Assembly: GCA_013178305.1 (NCBI GenBank)
Contig: JABLXB010000002.1
Span: 248,001 to 312,000 of the forward strand
Direction: 5' to 3'
DNA length: 64,000 bases
Origin: Bacillota bacterium
GTDB taxonomy: Bacteria; Bacillota; Sulfobacillia; JABLXB01
Under the pieces are notes generated by a model. It was not told the origin of the DNA. It did not search any database and saw nothing but the letters and a program-made list of their open reading frames with translations. Below, piece after piece: positions 12,140 to 27,187 of this stretch. A program made the position numbers and the translations under genes. Each line of letters starts with the position of its first letter. Within the stretch, counting starts at the first letter, position 1.

Positions 12140-12979
12140 TCATGGCACGTAGGGGGTGGAGGTGATTACCTCGCCCGCCCCGGGTATGTACGGCCTCTGC
12201 CTGCACCGGCAGTTGATCCACTCCTCAATCGGGCCTGACCGGTCGCCCGGGTACATGAGCCCGTTGGGATAAGGCTCGTCCATCCGCATGACCACGCCGT
12301 GGAGCATGATGTGGGCGCTCCGGACATCGTCATCGACTGCCGTGAGCCACTGCTTGTACTCCACGCCGTAGTCGCGCATCGTCGTGTTTGCCGCCTCGTT
12401 CTGGTAACCGTTTATCTCAGTCCGCGCAATCGCGGTCAGCCGGTTCTCTCGGAGTCCCTGGAAGACCTCGGCGAGTTTGTCCGCCGCCTCGTCGATCCCC
12501 AGCCCTTCCCGCACGATGCGCTGGAACATCTCTCCCGCGTCACCTTTCAGCCGCTCCATAGTGGCCTTGGAGCCCTGGAATACGTAGTCCTGGAACTTCT
12601 CAAGGACCATCGAGTTGAAGTCCCCAAACCGGATCCGCATCCCGGCCTTGGCTAGCTCCTGCTGAACAGAACGCCTCGCGGAACCCGCCACTCCCAGCGC
12701 CTCTTCGACCATCGCGTCCGGCGCCTTCCGTTCGAGGTCGGCCACCAGGTCGGCGGCCATGCTCTCCCTCTCCGCCGATCCCGCCGGCATCCCTCGCCGC
12801 TTGACCTCGGCAATGACCTTCTCCGCGCCTTTCTGGAACAACGCCTGGAGCCTCCGGGCCAGGCGCTTCTCGGCTTCGTCGGCCCAACGCGCCTTCTCAG
12901 CCCAGGGAGGCATCGCGCCCTGCTCCACCAGGAACGCGACCACCCTGGCGTCTACCTTCACCGCCACGTCGCGCCTCAT
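12140..12979 (-). CDS. Phage head morphogenesis protein (Mu gpF / SPP1 gp7-like)
   Basis: 279 residues. The C-terminal domain has the family hallmarks: RLTAIARTEINGYQNEAANT, EYKQWLTAVDDDVRSAH and an ending WINCRCRQRPYIP with the conserved Cys pair. The N-terminal 130 residues are helical and charged. In Mu-like phages the product is a minor head protein that sits inside the head near the portal and is needed for assembly. It overlaps the portal gene by 4 bases. Confidence 0.88.
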   Translation of the reverse strand: MRRDVAVKVDARVVAFLVEQGAMPPWAEKARWADEAEKRLARRLQALFQKGAEKVIAEVKRRGMPAGSAERESMAADLVADLERKAPDAMVEEALGVAGSARRSVQQELAKAGMRIRFGDFNSMVLEKFQDYVFQGSKATMERLKGDAGEMFQRIVREGLGIDEAADKLAEVFQGLRENRLTAIARTEINGYQNEAANTTMRDYGVEYKQWLTAVDDDVRSAHIMLHGVVMRMDEPYPNGLMYPGDRSGPIEEWINCRCRQRPYIPGAGEVITSTPYVP

Positions 12980-14409
12980 GACGCCTTCACCGCGGCGACC
13001 AGGTCCCGGTGGAGCCCCTTGATAGCGTCGAGAAGAGCCGCCGGCGACTGTCCCGTGATGGGCTGGCCGTTGAGGTAGTAGGCGTCCATGGCCGGGTCCG
13101 CCACCCTCTGCTTACCCAGTCGCTCCCGGACGTCATTGGGGCTGAATACAGCGATTCTGCAGTAGCCCTCGCTCATCTTGAGGTCGTGTTCCTCATCGGC
13201 GGTGTCTATCTCGTTGAGTTTCCACTCCCACGACCTGGCCCCAAAGCATCCCCATACCACGTGCCTGTTGAACCGCGTCTCGAGTGTCTCCTGGCGCGGG
13301 CGGATCACGCTGTTCTTGTATATCTCGGTCGTGCCCTTTACGTTGCTGCCGCCCAGATTGCCCGTCTCGCTAATACCCATGCGGTAGGGGGGGACCCCAT
13401 GGGCAGCCAGGATCTCGTCGCGGTTATCCTGCCGGTAGAGCCGGAACGAAACGTCCCGCATCTCGACGTCCAATTTCTCGAACTTGATGTTCACCGTCTG
13501 GCCCTGCGACGTCTGGGCGGTCAATACCAGGGTGGAATGCGGGTTCCCCTTGACCTTATGCTCAAAGAAGTCCTGAATGGTGCGCTCCGTCTCTTCGTCC
13601 AGGTCCGCGCCCTCGACCACCACGGCATATGCCGGGATGGCATGATTCTCAAAGAATTTGAGCGTATAGTCCCGCCTGTATGCGTCGCCGAGAAGCACTC
13701 CCAATGCGGGGAGGACGTCGGGGACGCCGTAATAGGCGCTCTTGCTCGTGTAGTTCAGGAAGTGGATTACCTCGCTGGCCCGCCTCTCGAACGGAATAGA
13801 CCCGAGCGCCGCGAAGGCGCCGGTATACATGTCCACGTCATACGGTACCCCGAACCGCTTGAACCACCGGCGCTGGTTCTCGACAATCTGGCAGTAGCGC
13901 ATACGGTCCCTATGGACCCTCATCGTGTGCGCCGGCAGGTGAGCCAGGCCCGTGGCCGGCCCGTCGGCAAAGACGCGGAGCACCTCCAGATCGCCATTGC
14001 CGCACGCCTCATAGTCCACCATGACATGGTCCAGGATCTCGACGAGCGCCAGTTCGGGATGCGGCTCGTCGAGAAACGACTTCAGGGCCGCGATCTCAGT
14101 CTCTGGAGCGTCGTCGAGTCGCGGCCTGAGCGTCCAGCCAAGGCCGGCGGTGTCCCGGGCCTTGGTCTTGACCGCCCGCATGTGATATGTGTTCGCTTCG
14201 AGCAGGTCCACGAGCGTTTCGAGGTTATGGGGAGGGGCGACGAGGCCAAGCTCACCATATAGGCCGGTGAACCGGTCGGCCGCGAGTTGCTTCGATTCCG
14301 ACGGGCTGCCCTTGACGGCATACTGCTCCAGGACGTCGGCCCGGATGACCTTGCCGTCGCTCAGGACATATGCCTTGACCGCGCTCTGCTTCTCGGCCGC
14401 TTTCGGCAT
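12976..14409 (-). CDS. Portal protein, PBSX family
   Basis: 477 residues. The family pattern is clear: NLETLVDLLEANTYHMRAVK, then LMVDYEACGNGDLEV-like and FLNYTSKSAYYGVPDVLPAL, then FFENHAIPAYAVVVEGADL, DVSFRLYRQDNRDEILAAHG, VPPYRMG, and YKNSVIRPRQETLE. This is the PBSX-type phage portal, forming the dodecameric ring through which DNA enters. The start codon is preceded by GGAGGG, and just upstream of that lies the fivefold AGTAACGC array. Confidence 0.9.
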   Translation of the reverse strand: MPKAAEKQSAVKAYVLSDGKVIRADVLEQYAVKGSPSESKQLAADRFTGLYGELGLVAPPHNLETLVDLLEANTYHMRAVKTKARDTAGLGWTLRPRLDDAPETEIAALKSFLDEPHPELALVEILDHVMVDYEACGNGDLEVLRVFADGPATGLAHLPAHTMRVHRDRMRYCQIVENQRRWFKRFGVPYDVDMYTGAFAALGSIPFERRASEVIHFLNYTSKSAYYGVPDVLPALGVLLGDAYRRDYTLKFFENHAIPAYAVVVEGADLDEETERTIQDFFEHKVKGNPHSTLVLTAQTSQGQTVNIKFEKLDVEMRDVSFRLYRQDNRDEILAAHGVPPYRMGISETGNLGGSNVKGTTEIYKNSVIRPRQETLETRFNRHVVWGCFGARSWEWKLNEIDTADEEHDLKMSEGYCRIAVFSPNDVRERLGKQRVADPAMDAYYLNGQPITGQSPAALLDAIKGLHRDLVAAVKAS

Positions 14410-14421
14410 CCCATACCCTCC

Positions 14422-14471
14422 GCGTTACTATAGCGTTACTTCGCGTTACTGGGGCGTTACTAGGCGTTACT
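14422..14471 (-). repeat. Five helically phased AGTAACGC direct repeats upstream of the portal gene
   Basis: On the + strand GCGTTACT (minus strand AGTAACGC) occurs at 14422, 14433, 14443, 14454 and 14464. The 11, 10, 11, 10-base periods keep all copies on one face of the helix. The array fills most of the short gap between terminase and portal and ends just before the portal SD. The same motif recurs in the left-end region at 26970 and, as GGTAACGC, at 26981, again 11 bases apart. A cooperative binding site for a phage DNA-binding protein is the likeliest reading. Confidence 0.9.
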
Positions 14472-14526
14472 GGCCCGCCCCTGGTATCTCTGTACCCCCC
14501 GAACGCTCCTGGGGCTTTCTAGAGCC

Positions 14527-15816
14527 TCAGAAGGCCACGGCCTTCACCTTGGGAGGCTTCGCCCGCTGCGCCTGGTCGGCCGCGTGGAGCGTGAGAGCCT
14601 TTGCCCAGAACCTGTCCGCGTGGCCGTCCTCGTCGCGCTCGGAGTCATACCGCACGTTTCCTGCCGACGTTGTCATCTTCCGGACCTTGTGAAGATCCTG
14701 CCGGATCTGCTTGTCTATGGGTACCCGCGTCCTCTTGTCCTCGAAGACGCGGAGCATCGTTATCGCCATGTCGCCCTTCACGGCCGGCGAGAACTCGACA
14801 CACTCAACGCGGTACCGCCCGAAGTCCTCCTGGGCCTCCTCCGCGAGCTGCGCGCCGATGCCGGTCGAGTCGATGCAGGCCCTGATTATCCGCGGCATCC
14901 TCAGGAAGCCGTAGAGCTCATCGCGCTGGATCCTGAAGCGGGTCTTCGGCATCTCCACTACTGCCCGGGTCCAGAAGATATCTCCAACCAGTTCGTCCAG
15001 CCAGATGACCGAGAGGTCGCGCTTCCGGCCTATGTCCATCCCGAGATAGAGAGGCCCCGCCGGTTCGAACCCCATAGGCAGCGCCTTCGTGGCTGCCTCG
15101 TGCTCACAGGCGGCGATAAGGTCATATGTCAGTAGCGCCGTTGCCTCGTCGATGAACTTGCATTCGTATTCCTGAGCCCAGTCGTCTTCACACTCAATGC
15201 CAGCGCGCAGTTCCTCGATGTTGACGTCCAGGCCCTCAGCCACCGCCTGGTAGATATCGACCTGGTGCTTGGACCACTTGCCTGACGTATCAGTGCACAG
15301 GTCATAGAACTTGTTGTTCTTGCCTTGCGGCGTTGAGATAACCCGGATCTTGTAGCCCCTCGTGATGACGGGGAAGAGCGCAGTCCATATCTTCCTGCTG
15401 TCTTGGTGGAAAGCGAACTCGTCCAAAACGACGTTTCCCGAGAAGCCGCGGGCGGTGTCCGGGTTCGCCGGCAGGCCGATAATCTTAGACCCGTTCGGGA
15501 ACCTAATCTCCAGAAGCTTGAAGTCCCGGTCGTCCACGGTGAAGGCGGACTCAAGGACGTCCAGGACATAGCCAACGGCCCGGGCGTGCTGCTGACACTT
15601 CTCCATGAGTTCCTTGCTCTGTCGCTCGCCGCGGCTGAGCAGAACCCATGTCGTGCGGTGTTCCAGACCGTCAAGGACCACTTCGAGGGCGACCGCGAAA
15701 CTGAAGCCGGTCTGCCTCGCCTTATTGGCGATCTTGAACCTTGACTGGTCCTGTACCCAGCGCTGCTGGTAAGGGAGCAGCGGGATCGCCGGCGTCACGC
15801 TAGCTGGCAAGCCCAT
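14527..15816 (-). CDS. Terminase large subunit (Mu gp28-like)
   Basis: 429 residues. The ATPase part begins with LLPYQQRWVQDQSRFKIANK and a Walker A-like KARQTGFS, where the usual GKS/T is altered as in Mu-type terminases. It has Walker B VVLDEFAFH and motif ISTPQGKNNKFY. The nuclease part has GMDIGRKRDLSVIWL, CIDSTGIGAQLAEE and, near the end, DEDGHADRFWAKAL, supplying the acidic metal ligands of the RNase H-like fold. It drives headful packaging of host-integrated copies in transposable phages. Confidence 0.9.
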   Translation of the reverse strand: MGLPASVTPAIPLLPYQQRWVQDQSRFKIANKARQTGFSFAVALEVVLDGLEHRTTWVLLSRGERQSKELMEKCQQHARAVGYVLDVLESAFTVDDRDFKLLEIRFPNGSKIIGLPANPDTARGFSGNVVLDEFAFHQDSRKIWTALFPVITRGYKIRVISTPQGKNNKFYDLCTDTSGKWSKHQVDIYQAVAEGLDVNIEELRAGIECEDDWAQEYECKFIDEATALLTYDLIAACEHEAATKALPMGFEPAGPLYLGMDIGRKRDLSVIWLDELVGDIFWTRAVVEMPKTRFRIQRDELYGFLRMPRIIRACIDSTGIGAQLAEEAQEDFGRYRVECVEFSPAVKGDMAITMLRVFEDKRTRVPIDKQIRQDLHKVRKMTTSAGNVRYDSERDEDGHADRFWAKALTLHAADQAQRAKPPKVKAVAF

Positions 15817-23014: not shown

Positions 23015-24907
23015 TCAGTGTTTGTTGGCCTCAGCCCGACGAATCGCACGCTCGGCGTAGGCCATAATCAACTCGTCCGCCATGTCACGGCCCTTCCTGG
23101 CCCTCGCCGGCGCGATATCAATAGGCAACCGGCTGCGCCCCGCGCGCTCCAGGCCGGTGAGCCGTGTCACCTTCGAACCCTTGTCCACGACTGGACCACA
23201 GAGAGCCGTCGCGCCGGCGTCCTGGGCCACGGCCACGATGTCCTCAAGGCCCCGGCGGTATCCCTCGATCTCCTTGCGGATCCGCCGTATCTCAGCCCGC
23301 TGCATCCTGCAGTGTTTCGCCAGTTGTTCCTCGGTCGCGTTCATGGAGAGCAGCTCATTGCAGGTGGCGGTGCAGAGATACTGCCTGCCCTCAAAGACCA
23401 GGAGTTCGCCGATCCGGTTCGGGTCGAAACGTATTACTAACTCGCGGCCCACGTGGTTGGCCAGCTCGTCCGCCCAGAAGACATGATTGAATCTGCGTAT
23501 GCCCTGCGGGTAGACGGCAGCCCGATCGGTCTTCATTAACAGAACGTCCAGAGCGCGGGCGTCAGGCATATCCTCGCGGGCTTTCTTTGTCGTCTCGTAT
23601 GCCTGCAGTGGGGGCATGTGAAGTTCCGAGTGGATCCTGACATGATAGTCCGTGCTGAGCCACTTCCCAAACGACTCCACGACCTCGGGAAGGGTGACGA
23701 GTTCGCCCTTGGCGTCCATCTCCTTGATTCTGGCGTCGTTGTTGCAAGCCGGTCGCTCCTTGGGATTGCCCCCCAGGAAGCCTGGTTGGAAGCGCGAGAA
23801 TCGCTCCTTGACCGTCCCGAAGAAGCGTTCGATTGCCTTCGCCTCTGGGTAGTAAGATTTGCAGTGATGTACCTCGATGTCGAGCATGGAGAAAACCCCA
23901 TCGAGGTCGTTAAGCCTGTGGCTCTTATAGTCGTTGCCGTTGTCCATATATGCGCAGGCTGGCAATCCGCTGAAGGGAACTCCAGGCTTTGCGAGAACCC
24001 CATGCCGGAATGCCATGCATATCGTCTCGGACGACGGTTGCAGGTTGATACACCAGCCGACTATGACCCTGCTCCGAAGATCCATCCAGGCGGTGAGCGA
24101 AGGCCGGATAATACGTCCGCCGTAGCTTACAGGAAAGTCAAACTCGTGATGGTCACCGACCCACCACTCATTGACCGCGAGGTCATCATAGGTGCGCCGG
24201 CATTTCGGCATGCACTTGTGCTTATATGCTTCTTCGCCCTCGCGGCCCATCACCATGAGTGGCTTGGGCTGGCTGGCGACAAAGCGGAATACCGTGGCTC
24301 GGCTGGCGATCGGCCAGCCTCGTTCTTGCGCTTCCTTTATATACTGCTCATACACCCACTGGATGGGGGGTTGCAGTTCCTGGAGTGCGTGGCCCAGGAT
24401 GAACTTGCGCGCCTCTTCGGTCAGGGTACGGGCCCCGTGTCCCGGTCTGTCAGGGAGGTTGGGCAGCATGGCTATGAACCCGCCTTCCTCATATTCGCTT
24501 ATCCACCGGTAGAGAGTCGCCAGACTTATCCCCGCCTGGGCGGCCAGGGCGGCCTTACCCTCCCGGCCGGTGCTCATCGCTATCTTCACGGTCCGCTCGC
24601 GCTGGAGGGCCTCTCCGATCACCTGGTCCCCCAGGCGGTCCTTGTACTCCGCGAGGTTGACGGTCCGGATCGGCTTCGGCTCAGGGTCGCGGCCACCGTT
24701 CAGGTACCGCGCGCGGATCGGTTCGGGCAAGCTCGAGAGTGCGATCTCGTATCGCTTGCCACTTGAGCCGCCGCGCCCCAGGGCGCTCCGGACTTCGAAT
24801 TCACCCAGCCGTCGTTGAATCGTCCATCTGCTCCATCCGAGGAGCCGGGCCACTTCTTCGGTTGGCAGCCAGGCATCGGATTGTCTCGGATTGCCGGACT
24901 CGGTCAT
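23015..24907 (-). CDS. A: Mu-like transposase (DDE integrase)
   Basis: 630 residues from ATG 24907 (GAGAGGGC upstream). Residues 11-70 form the MuA N-terminal winged-helix (LPTEEVARLLGWSRWTIQRR). The segment at 105-210 is the end-binding I-beta/I-gamma-like region, with LAAQAGISLATLYRWISEYE. The catalytic RNase H core has D252 (WVGDHHEFDF), D322 (AYMDNGNDY) and E360 (AKAIERFFGTVKERF). The C-terminal region (430-630) is the Mu-transposase beta barrel and the B/ClpX-contact tail. It carries out replicative transposition. Confidence 0.95.
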   Translation of the reverse strand: MTESGNPRQSDAWLPTEEVARLLGWSRWTIQRRLGEFEVRSALGRGGSSGKRYEIALSSLPEPIRARYLNGGRDPEPKPIRTVNLAEYKDRLGDQVIGEALQRERTVKIAMSTGREGKAALAAQAGISLATLYRWISEYEEGGFIAMLPNLPDRPGHGARTLTEEARKFILGHALQELQPPIQWVYEQYIKEAQERGWPIASRATVFRFVASQPKPLMVMGREGEEAYKHKCMPKCRRTYDDLAVNEWWVGDHHEFDFPVSYGGRIIRPSLTAWMDLRSRVIVGWCINLQPSSETICMAFRHGVLAKPGVPFSGLPACAYMDNGNDYKSHRLNDLDGVFSMLDIEVHHCKSYYPEAKAIERFFGTVKERFSRFQPGFLGGNPKERPACNNDARIKEMDAKGELVTLPEVVESFGKWLSTDYHVRIHSELHMPPLQAYETTKKAREDMPDARALDVLLMKTDRAAVYPQGIRRFNHVFWADELANHVGRELVIRFDPNRIGELLVFEGRQYLCTATCNELLSMNATEEQLAKHCRMQRAEIRRIRKEIEGYRRGLEDIVAVAQDAGATALCGPVVDKGSKVTRLTGLERAGRSRLPIDIAPARARKGRDMADELIMAYAERAIRRAEANKH

Positions 24908-25386
24908 GCCCTCTCCCTCATGTGCTGCAAGAACTCGCGAATTGCCCGCTCCTTTTGAGTGAGCTCGCGCTTGGTCTGATCGATGCGGCCGATCTCCGCC
25001 AGCAAGGCTTCCTCGCTTTCGAGGACATAACAAGAGACGAGCTCCGCCATGAGACGCAAAATCTCACTGGAGCCCGTCACCTTGAGAAACGCCGGCAGGT
25101 ACTCGGCGGGGAATCGATGGAACTCTTTACTCTCGGCAGTCCAGGAATCCAGTTGAGCCTTGGTGATCTCGGCGCCCACGAGTTCGCTCATGCGGGCGGC
25201 CGCCTCGTACCGGCTGAAGGGGCATTCTTTGAGGGCCTGGCTAAGCATCTCCCGGAGTCTGCTGGAGATATTAAAACTACCGGGGGCGCTGTGGCCGCAG
25301 GCCGCCAGGTGGCGGGCCCGGACTACGTCAAAAAGACTCATCTGCGCAGACGACGGCTTGCCTAAAACCCGTGTCCTCCTAGACAT
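24904..25386 (-). CDS. Conserved protein upstream of transposase (helical DNA-binding-like)
   Basis: 160 residues from ATG 25386. The central part SRLREMLSQALKECPFSRYE, AAARMSELVGAEITKAQLDS, WTAESKEFHRFPAEYLPAFL, KVTGSSEILRLMAELVSCYV is a Cro-like four-helix pattern that I recognise as recurring in genes between ner and A of siphovirus-type transposable phages. The C-terminus is a charged coiled coil. It overlaps A by 4 bases. A regulatory role in the early operon is likely but unproved. Confidence 0.7.
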   Translation of the reverse strand: MSRRTRVLGKPSSAQMSLFDVVRARHLAACGHSAPGSFNISSRLREMLSQALKECPFSRYEAAARMSELVGAEITKAQLDSWTAESKEFHRFPAEYLPAFLKVTGSSEILRLMAELVSCYVLESEEALLAEIGRIDQTKRELTQKERAIREFLQHMRERA

Positions 25387-25419
25387 TGCCACCCTCACCT
25401 CGGACGACTATAATCGGAG

Positions 25420-25677
25420 TTAAGATGTTGACTTAGCGGATCGCCCACGAGAGGCGGCCGGGCCGAACACCTGCTCGACGGTCAGGCCCAGCCGCCTGGC
25501 GATGGCCAGCCTGATCCTGTCGTTGCACCGGTATGAGGGAGACCGGCGCAGGACTTGGCTGACCGCGCTTAGGGTGACGCCGCACTCATCCGCGATCTCG
25601 GCGAAGGGTATGCCGCGCCGGATGAGTTCGGCTTTGATTTCGTTCTTGGACATTGGCCGGGACTCGCTGCGAGTCAC
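25420..25677 (-). CDS. Ner-like early regulator (helix-turn-helix)
   Basis: 85 residues from GTG 25677, which has GGAGGT 8 bases upstream. KNEIKAELIRRGIPFAEIAD, ECGVTLSAVSQVLRRSPSYR and CNDRIRLAIARRLGLTVEQV match the Mu Ner/Nlp fold. In Mu, Ner represses the early and repressor promoters after induction. It is the first gene of the leftward early operon, divergent from the repressor. Confidence 0.85.
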   Translation of the reverse strand: MTRSESRPMSKNEIKAELIRRGIPFAEIADECGVTLSAVSQVLRRSPSYRCNDRIRLAIARRLGLTVEQVFGPAASRGRSAKSTS

Positions 25678-25791: not shown

Positions 25792-26421
25792 GTGACTCAG
25801 GATCTGCGCGACCGCTTACGCGAGGCATTGACGAGAGCAGGTTTAACCCAGAAGGAACTCGCGGAGAGGGTTGGCATTCAACCTTCCTCTATATACAACA
25901 TCAGCAAGGGTAAGAATGCATCGGAGCTACTGATCCGCGCAATGGCCCGCGAACTCGGTATAAGCCCTGACTGGCTACGCGATGGCACCGGGATACCTGA
26001 AGTGCCGGTCGGCAGCGCCCTCCTGGATGTCATCAAGAGGTATGGGCTGGAGGCGACGACTCAGGCTTTCGAGGCACTCGTGAAGCCTCGGGTTTCGGTG
26101 CGCGGCGTCTTCGAGCCCGATATCGTCACAATGACTGAGCAGTTGAAGGCTCTATGGATAGCAGCAGACGAGGATACCCGGACGTGGATCAAAGTGCAGT
26201 TTAGGAAAGCCTTCGGCGACAGCCTTCCGCCATTGGGGCCAGGCACGCACAGGGACTATATGATGCCTGTAGTACATAGACGGCTCGACCGGCTGCCACC
26301 GGGCGATCTGGCGCGAGTGGCCGAGGGTGCTGAGGGATACGAGGCGACAGTGGTACCTAACAAGGCCGACGGGTCCCCATCCGGCGACCTCAAGAAAGAA
26401 GGGCAAGAAAGTGGGGTCTGA
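25792..26421 (+). CDS. Phage repressor (Cro/C1-type helix-turn-helix)
   Basis: 209 residues from GTG 25792 (GGGGGGTGA upstream). The N-terminal helix-turn-helix RLREALTRAGLTQKELAERV then GIQPSSIYNISKGKNASELL is followed by RELGISPDWLRDGTG, the normal C1-like order. Residues 80-209 are a distinct helical domain without an S24/LexA peptidase motif, so inactivation would not be by autocleavage. It is the only phage gene known to face the host side, as expected for the lysogeny repressor. Confidence 0.88.
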   Translation: MTQDLRDRLREALTRAGLTQKELAERVGIQPSSIYNISKGKNASELLIRAMARELGISPDWLRDGTGIPEVPVGSALLDVIKRYGLEATTQAFEALVKPRVSVRGVFEPDIVTMTEQLKALWIAADEDTRTWIKVQFRKAFGDSLPPLGPGTHRDYMMPVVHRRLDRLPPGDLARVAEGAEGYEATVVPNKADGSPSGDLKKEGQESGV

Positions 26422-26895: not shown

Positions 26896-26969
26896 CGCCC
26901 TGTCACCGTCCGTTACTCAGTGCCAACACCTACCACGCCGATCTCAACATCCACCTGGCCGAATACTCC

Positions 26970-26988
26970 AGTAACGCCCGGGTAACGC
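26970..26988 (+). repeat. AGTAACGC / GGTAACGC pair, 11-bp period
   Basis: AGTAACGC at 26970-26977 and GGTAACGC at 26981-26988. It is the same motif and period as the fivefold array before the portal gene at 14.4 kb, here on the opposite strand orientation relative to phage transcription. An inverted CGTTACT lies at 26911. Confidence 0.75.
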
Positions 26989-27144: not shown

Positions 27145-27187
27145 TTCTATCAGGTACCCCCATTCTCATTCCGTGTGAGACTTGACA

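Follow-up and report, generated by a model that had tools for sequence, protein, structure and literature searches.

In Mu-type phages, the left end of the genome carries operators and a transposition enhancer, and in Mu-like phages packaging starts from that end. In lambdoid phages, the origin has its iterons and an AT-rich tract centrally within gene O, which encodes the initiator (PMC7466680). No description of the array family treated below was found in searches of the literature on origins and iterons or among the best 20 of 653 results for GTAACGC (titles and abstracts, mainly of open texts).

The array analysed here lies on the minus strand at 14422–14471 of the window (the whole stretch of DNA under study, 64,000 nucleotides). 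It consists of five exact copies of AGTAACGC at 14422–14429, 14433–14440, 14443–14450, 14454–14461 and 14464–14471, with steps of 11, 10, 11 and 10 bp. Read along the minus strand, the layout is AGTAACGC-CT-AGTAACGC-CCC-AGTAACGC-GA-AGTAACGC-TAT-AGTAACGC, the spacers differing in sequence and alternating in length. If iterons are defined by at least three direct repeats, each roughly a helical turn from the next, these five repeats at 10 or 11 bp qualify. The original prediction had described five exact 8-mers at helical spacing, an arrangement unlikely by chance and placed directly before the SD of the portal gene, and it was borne out in all of this. The last copy adjoins GGAGGG, 8 to 12 bases ahead of the portal ATG at 14409, and the longest 10/11-spaced chain of any 8-mer was 5 in the window, while 50 simulated windows gave no chain longer than 2. 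The array is thus real and beyond chance, and is explained in outline as an orphan member of a type of iteron array widespread in phages.

The genome carrying the window (3.37 Mb) had 53 exact AGTAACGC 8-mers, so it is only as a single 8-mer that the motif has many copies elsewhere. The pair pattern (gap of 3, up to 2 mismatches) matched this genome at 5 places: two belong to the array, one lies at 26970 and has one mismatch, and the other two are elsewhere, with two mismatches each. For GTAACGC N3-4 GTAACGC N3-4 GTAACGC, the window array was the sole occurrence among 154 genomes of the class, and the reversed-pattern control gave 0.

The array belongs to a Mu-like prophage of 28,050 bp, whose ends were mapped at 247138 and 275187 of the contig (C2), corresponding to window positions -862 to 27187. 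The left terminal base is 27187, and the other end lies 862 bases before window base 1. These are TG...CA ends with 14 of 20 terminal bases matching and a 5-bp target duplication, TTCAT; of three TG/CA end candidates, the mapped pair alone has matching ends. They were located by a target-duplication search and were not found by k-mer and local-alignment searches for terminal repeats. The gene set is Mu-like, with a transposase carrying Mu-type domains, an AAA partner, Gam, GemA, Ner-like and repressor-like regulators, a terminase and head genes. Regulators were placed at 25792–26421 (repressor), 25420–25677 (Ner-like) and 24904–25398, and among the subset of prophage ORFs scanned no match to a Mor/C-like protein was found. 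Just within the right end of the prophage, nested inverted repeats, GGGCGCATACCTATGCAC and GTGCATAAGCATGCGCCC, were observed (L100:13193-13250).

Upstream of the array is the gene for the terminase large subunit (14527–15816, minus strand; phrog_5909, E 2.9e-57), and the first gene after it encodes the portal protein (12976–14409, minus strand; phrog_12, E 1.2e-48). The best phage match of the portal was Methanobacterium virus Drs3 (35%). Among 101 related genomes, the portal had matches in 4 besides its own, the best at 44%, and among viral contigs it had 0 relatives. The terminase had 80 relatives in viral contigs, at 47–58% identity, and only distant matches in the 154 class genomes; no matching portal was detected by tblastn in those 80 relatives. 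In Drs3 and the prophages of two genomes with related portals (G011 and G005), terminase and portal genes overlap by 4 bp, and the 117-bp gap at 14410–14526 that contains the array is therefore read as a module joint. On these comparisons, portal and terminase belong to different lineages, a Mu-type terminase being joined to a portal of foreign lineage in a mosaic joint at the array (window 12976–15816). The array was present in 0 of the 80 terminase relatives, none of which is a close relative of this phage. A transposase search likewise returned no close relative: two viral loci matched at a distance, as did 22 other genomes, in which the matches mostly resembled insertion sequences. An archaeal host, considered on account of the methanogen-virus portal match, was dropped: the host genes examined were equivocal, but sigma/ECF-type and spore-coat (CotE) genes point to a spore-forming bacterium. 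A search with the archaeal rRNA family returned no rRNA of any kind. In the G011 prophage, an initiator-like gene (L096:3420-4466) was seen to have repeats in the linker at the same position, which are GGGAAACCCC-like and ATAACCGGAACCG-like and not GTAACGC.

The array is non-coding. In the gap, all three minus-strand frames are without a start codon. A stop-free frame at 14255–14518 (minus strand), reading ...GGPVTPSNAPVTRSNAIVTRRVWD..., contains no ATG, GTG, TTG or CTG and is no gene in its present form, so that the array does not lie inside an initiator gene. Within this open frame the array translates as VTPSNAPVTRSNAIVT. When a profile of 51 array-bearing initiators (see below) was run against the whole genome, the sole match was the array's own frame (E 1.1e-4), and the matched stretch includes one TGA. 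PF09681 had no match in this genome, which thus contains no recognisable initiator gene; phrog_270 gave four weak short matches there, but as it also responds in 10 of 14 controls it carries no information on this point. Apart from the array frame, no remnants of an initiator gene were found flanking the array. The tract following it has an AT content of 0.38, compared with a window mean of 0.377, and is neither AT-rich nor richer in purine/AT. When the gap was compared with phages by DNA BLAST, only two short, chance-like matches resulted. An array peptide used as a protein BLAST query gave one weak match and was uninformative.

Arrays of the same kind were abundant in other phages. Among 2.9 million viral contigs, at least 120 stretches had GTAACGC three times in succession with steps of 10 or 11 bp, compared with 49 in total for the reversed pattern. 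With arrays sharing one repeat sequence counted once, 74 of the 91 distinct GTAACGC arrays among the matches listed (119 viral loci) alternate 10/11, as against 0 of 30 distinct reversed-control arrays. The window array has this GTAACGC-class core and the alternating phase. Most of the listed arrays sit in ORFs of 200–450 residues, and the G+C content of the phages concerned ranges from 30 to 69%. The coding frames read V-T-x-[SRGC]-N-A-x, with GTA ACG C.. in one and.GT AAC GC. in another. Comparison of 51 array ORFs, picked for diversity from the matches listed, with PHROGs returned replication initiation protein, DnaD-like helicase loader, replisome organizer and primosomal protein. The top named families had 18, 12, 12, 12, 11 and 10 members, so that the largest single one covers 18 of the 51, and Pfam Phage_rep_org_N was found in 8 of the 51.

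In a sample chosen independently of the motif, PF09681 matched at 26 places across 398 genomes of the phylum, and the two best-scoring places have GTAACG arrays in the linker, after the N-terminal domain. The other 24 are without a GTAACG array; two of them, L313 and L318, carry repeats of another kind at this position (GGACAAATGTC-like and TGTCGCAAG), and the remaining places have no array by the criterion used. Through protein similarity, Tritos, Evi, Marin and pAEv1818 were found to carry GTCACG sites at 10–11 spacing in the same linker place. With steps of 10-10-10 in Marin and 10-10-11-10 in Tritos, one DNA motif is translated in each of the three frames, and what the initiator-gene arrays share is the DNA and not the protein. 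The L142 initiator had no match among named phages. Arrays with 11-bp steps were also seen in all three frames on the strand opposite initiator-like ORFs (L193, L208, L230 and L188), again consistent with conservation at the DNA level.

The tract after coding arrays had a mean AT content of 0.568, compared with 0.46 for the locus, and was above it by 0.05 in 54 of the 70 alternating arrays measured (70 of 74; the others were too short in flank). Iterons in the middle of a gene together with an AT-rich tract are the architecture of the lambdoid origin, by analogy with which we infer that the coding GTAACGC/GTCACGC arrays are origin iterons embedded in initiator genes in the style of lambda O. 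Free-standing arrays were also observed. At L175:204-240, four GTAACGC at 10-bp steps stop a single base short of the ATG of an initiator-like ORF, which itself contains another array. At L126:2305-2333 and L129:1978-2006, GTAACGC occurs as non-coding arrays of three copies that step by 11 bp and are followed by a purine-rich tract, 150–180 bp upstream of the gene for a terminase large subunit.

The alternation of the steps was accounted for as follows. GTAACGC contains TAA in one frame, and GTCACGC is free of stops in all three; for the complementary strand the situation is reversed, GCGTTAC having no stop and GCGTGAC one TGA. Because of the TAA, a sense-coding GTAACGC array must alternate 10/11. 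In the two sets, which are samples drawn from the matches listed (at least 120 stretches each), 63 of 63 sense GTAACGC arrays alternated, although these ORFs form only 4 clusters at 30% single linkage. Sense GTCACGC arrays, which are free to take any step, alternated in 9 of 67 cases and were uniform in 53. With the sense of each ORF taken from the longer open frame, so that some antisense arrays are possibly mislabelled, alternation was found in 6 of 6 antisense GTCACGC arrays (forced) and 10 of 20 antisense GTAACGC arrays (free). GTAACGC arrays without a long ORF alternated in 1 of 8 cases. Relatives remain in the sample, the 83 GTAACGC ORFs forming 50 clusters at 40% identity. It follows from these counts (63/63, 9/67, 6/6 and 10/20) that the reading frame, and not strict phasing at one helical turn, sets the alternation. 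Although non-coding, the window array keeps the alternation through all four of its steps, and so probably descends from a sense-coding initiator gene. Judged against the alternatives (1/8 and 10/20), the alternation favours such descent by a few-fold and is no proof.

Our preferred reading, to which we give a probability of about 0.58, is that the window array consists of orphan iterons derived from an initiator gene and has no present role in replication. The tandem GTAACGC sites in the initiator-gene linkers of other phages would most likely be the binding sites of the initiator itself within the origin. The window array would most likely stem from such a gene, retaining the 10/11 alternation that only sense-coding arrays need, and its gene context would have been lost when terminase and head modules were joined in a mosaic Mu-like phage. 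An initiator of this type would still be expected to bind the array DNA, at sites lined up along a single helical face. With no initiator gene found in the lysogen, the array most likely starts no replication here. Several observations count against this reading. The flanks hold no further remnant of an initiator gene, and the AT-richer tract that goes with coding arrays is absent. Five copies comprising 40 bases with zero substitutions are better preserved than would be expected of a relic in decay, and the left-end sites described below point to use of the motif by the phage itself. Of the arrays close to other terminases, the two that lie shortly before the gene (L126 and L129) are also non-coding but uniform in step. 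A phage-specific late operator or a pac mark, as proposed originally, is not supported as the main reading, as the core and the alternating spacing match those of widespread initiator-gene arrays; with regard to a pac or cos site, the prophage ends map away from the array.

A second-ranked and tentative reading is that the array was co-opted as an operator, a phage protein (e.g. the repressor, the Ner-like protein or the 24904–25398 regulator) binding the left end and the array cooperatively and so controlling transcription of the head genes or the spatial arrangement of the prophage. The recurrence of the motif as a pair with a period of 11 at the left end, as originally proposed, was confirmed as a link, but only the first copy is exact: the form at 26970–26988 (plus strand) is AGTAACGC CCG GGTAACGC. 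Given the left terminal base at 27187, this pair lies about 200 bp inside the end, and it is the only near-exact pair outside the array in the entire genome, located in the same prophage. A single copy with one mismatch, AGTAACGG, lies at 26910–26917 (minus strand). Altogether, the 497-bp left end has three sites with at most one mismatch, compared with 0.24 expected, a number equalled in 1 of 500 simulations, which suggests that the phage itself uses the motif. These three single sites leave room for a regulatory role into which the array motif may have been co-opted; the exactness of all five array copies, their place immediately before the portal gene and the presence of regulators in the prophage are in keeping with it. 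On the other hand, a scan for sigma-70-like promoters found 0 sites in 14350–14650, no regulator is tied to the motif, and an unrelated operator would share the core of the initiator arrays by chance alone. A further repeat, TGCACCCAAT, was noted three times in the left end (26767, 26886 and 27063) and nowhere else in the window or L100; its copies are possibly transposase or repressor sites.

It is unlikely that the array works as an auxiliary origin on which the initiator of a different phage or plasmid, present in the same cell, acts in trans. Its copies are exact and phased, and free-standing non-coding arrays do occur elsewhere, before the initiator-like ORF of L175 and before the terminases of L126 and L129. 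But no AT-rich tract adjoins the window array, the search of the host genome found no initiator, and the phage has a Mu-type transposase and AAA partner for its replication. A broader proposal, which we regard as similarly improbable, is that GTAACGC arrays might be a portable binding code shared by many unrelated phage initiators irrespective of frame; the transposable phage would then keep a gene-free exact copy and the left-end sites for a protein of the replication-initiator type, either an unrecognised one of its own or that of another phage.

We consider it very improbable that the array is a functionless simple tandem repeat grown by slippage. Exact three-copy AGTAACGC patterns were found in 12 unrelated bacterial contigs, mostly as uniform 10- or 11-bp repeats, but the spacers CT, CCC, GA and TAT differ and are alternately two and three bases long, which is not the pattern of a duplicated unit, and alternation was absent from the reversed control. 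An RNA-level leader element ahead of the portal gene is the least credible reading: the array directly precedes the ribosome-binding site, but the gap is no more structured than expected by chance (z = 0.41, with 136 of 200 shuffles folding equally well) and no Rfam family matched anywhere in the window.

If the orphan-iteron reading is right, the 11-10-11-10 step is the imprint of a stop codon on a coding array, and an intergenic array with that step records its own origin. GTNACGC arrays in initiator-gene linkers are also suggested as a test for origins in uncultured phages.

Compared with known systems, the window array may be likened to initiator-embedded origins, from which it departs in three defining features, i.e. 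location inside a gene, the following tract and an initiator. It is like the origin of lambdoid phages (PMC7466680) in having tandem initiator iterons that lie inside an initiator gene or, in the window, would derive from one; the iterons differ in sequence and length, and lambda has both the AT-rich tract and the gene, whereas the window has neither. With arrays in replisome-organiser and DnaD-like initiator genes, it shares the core, the 10/11 alternation and the V-T-x-S-N-A-x reading, but the window copy is non-coding, is located between terminase and portal, and is without a purine/AT-rich tract after it. Mu-type left-end operators and the enhancer may have a counterpart in the left-end motif sites of this transposable phage, whereas the main window array lies in the middle of the genome. 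The L126 and L129 arrays are similar to it in core, non-coding state and the neighbouring packaging gene; they differ in uniform 11-bp steps, in the purine-rich tract that follows and in lying upstream of the terminase gene, while the window array lies downstream.
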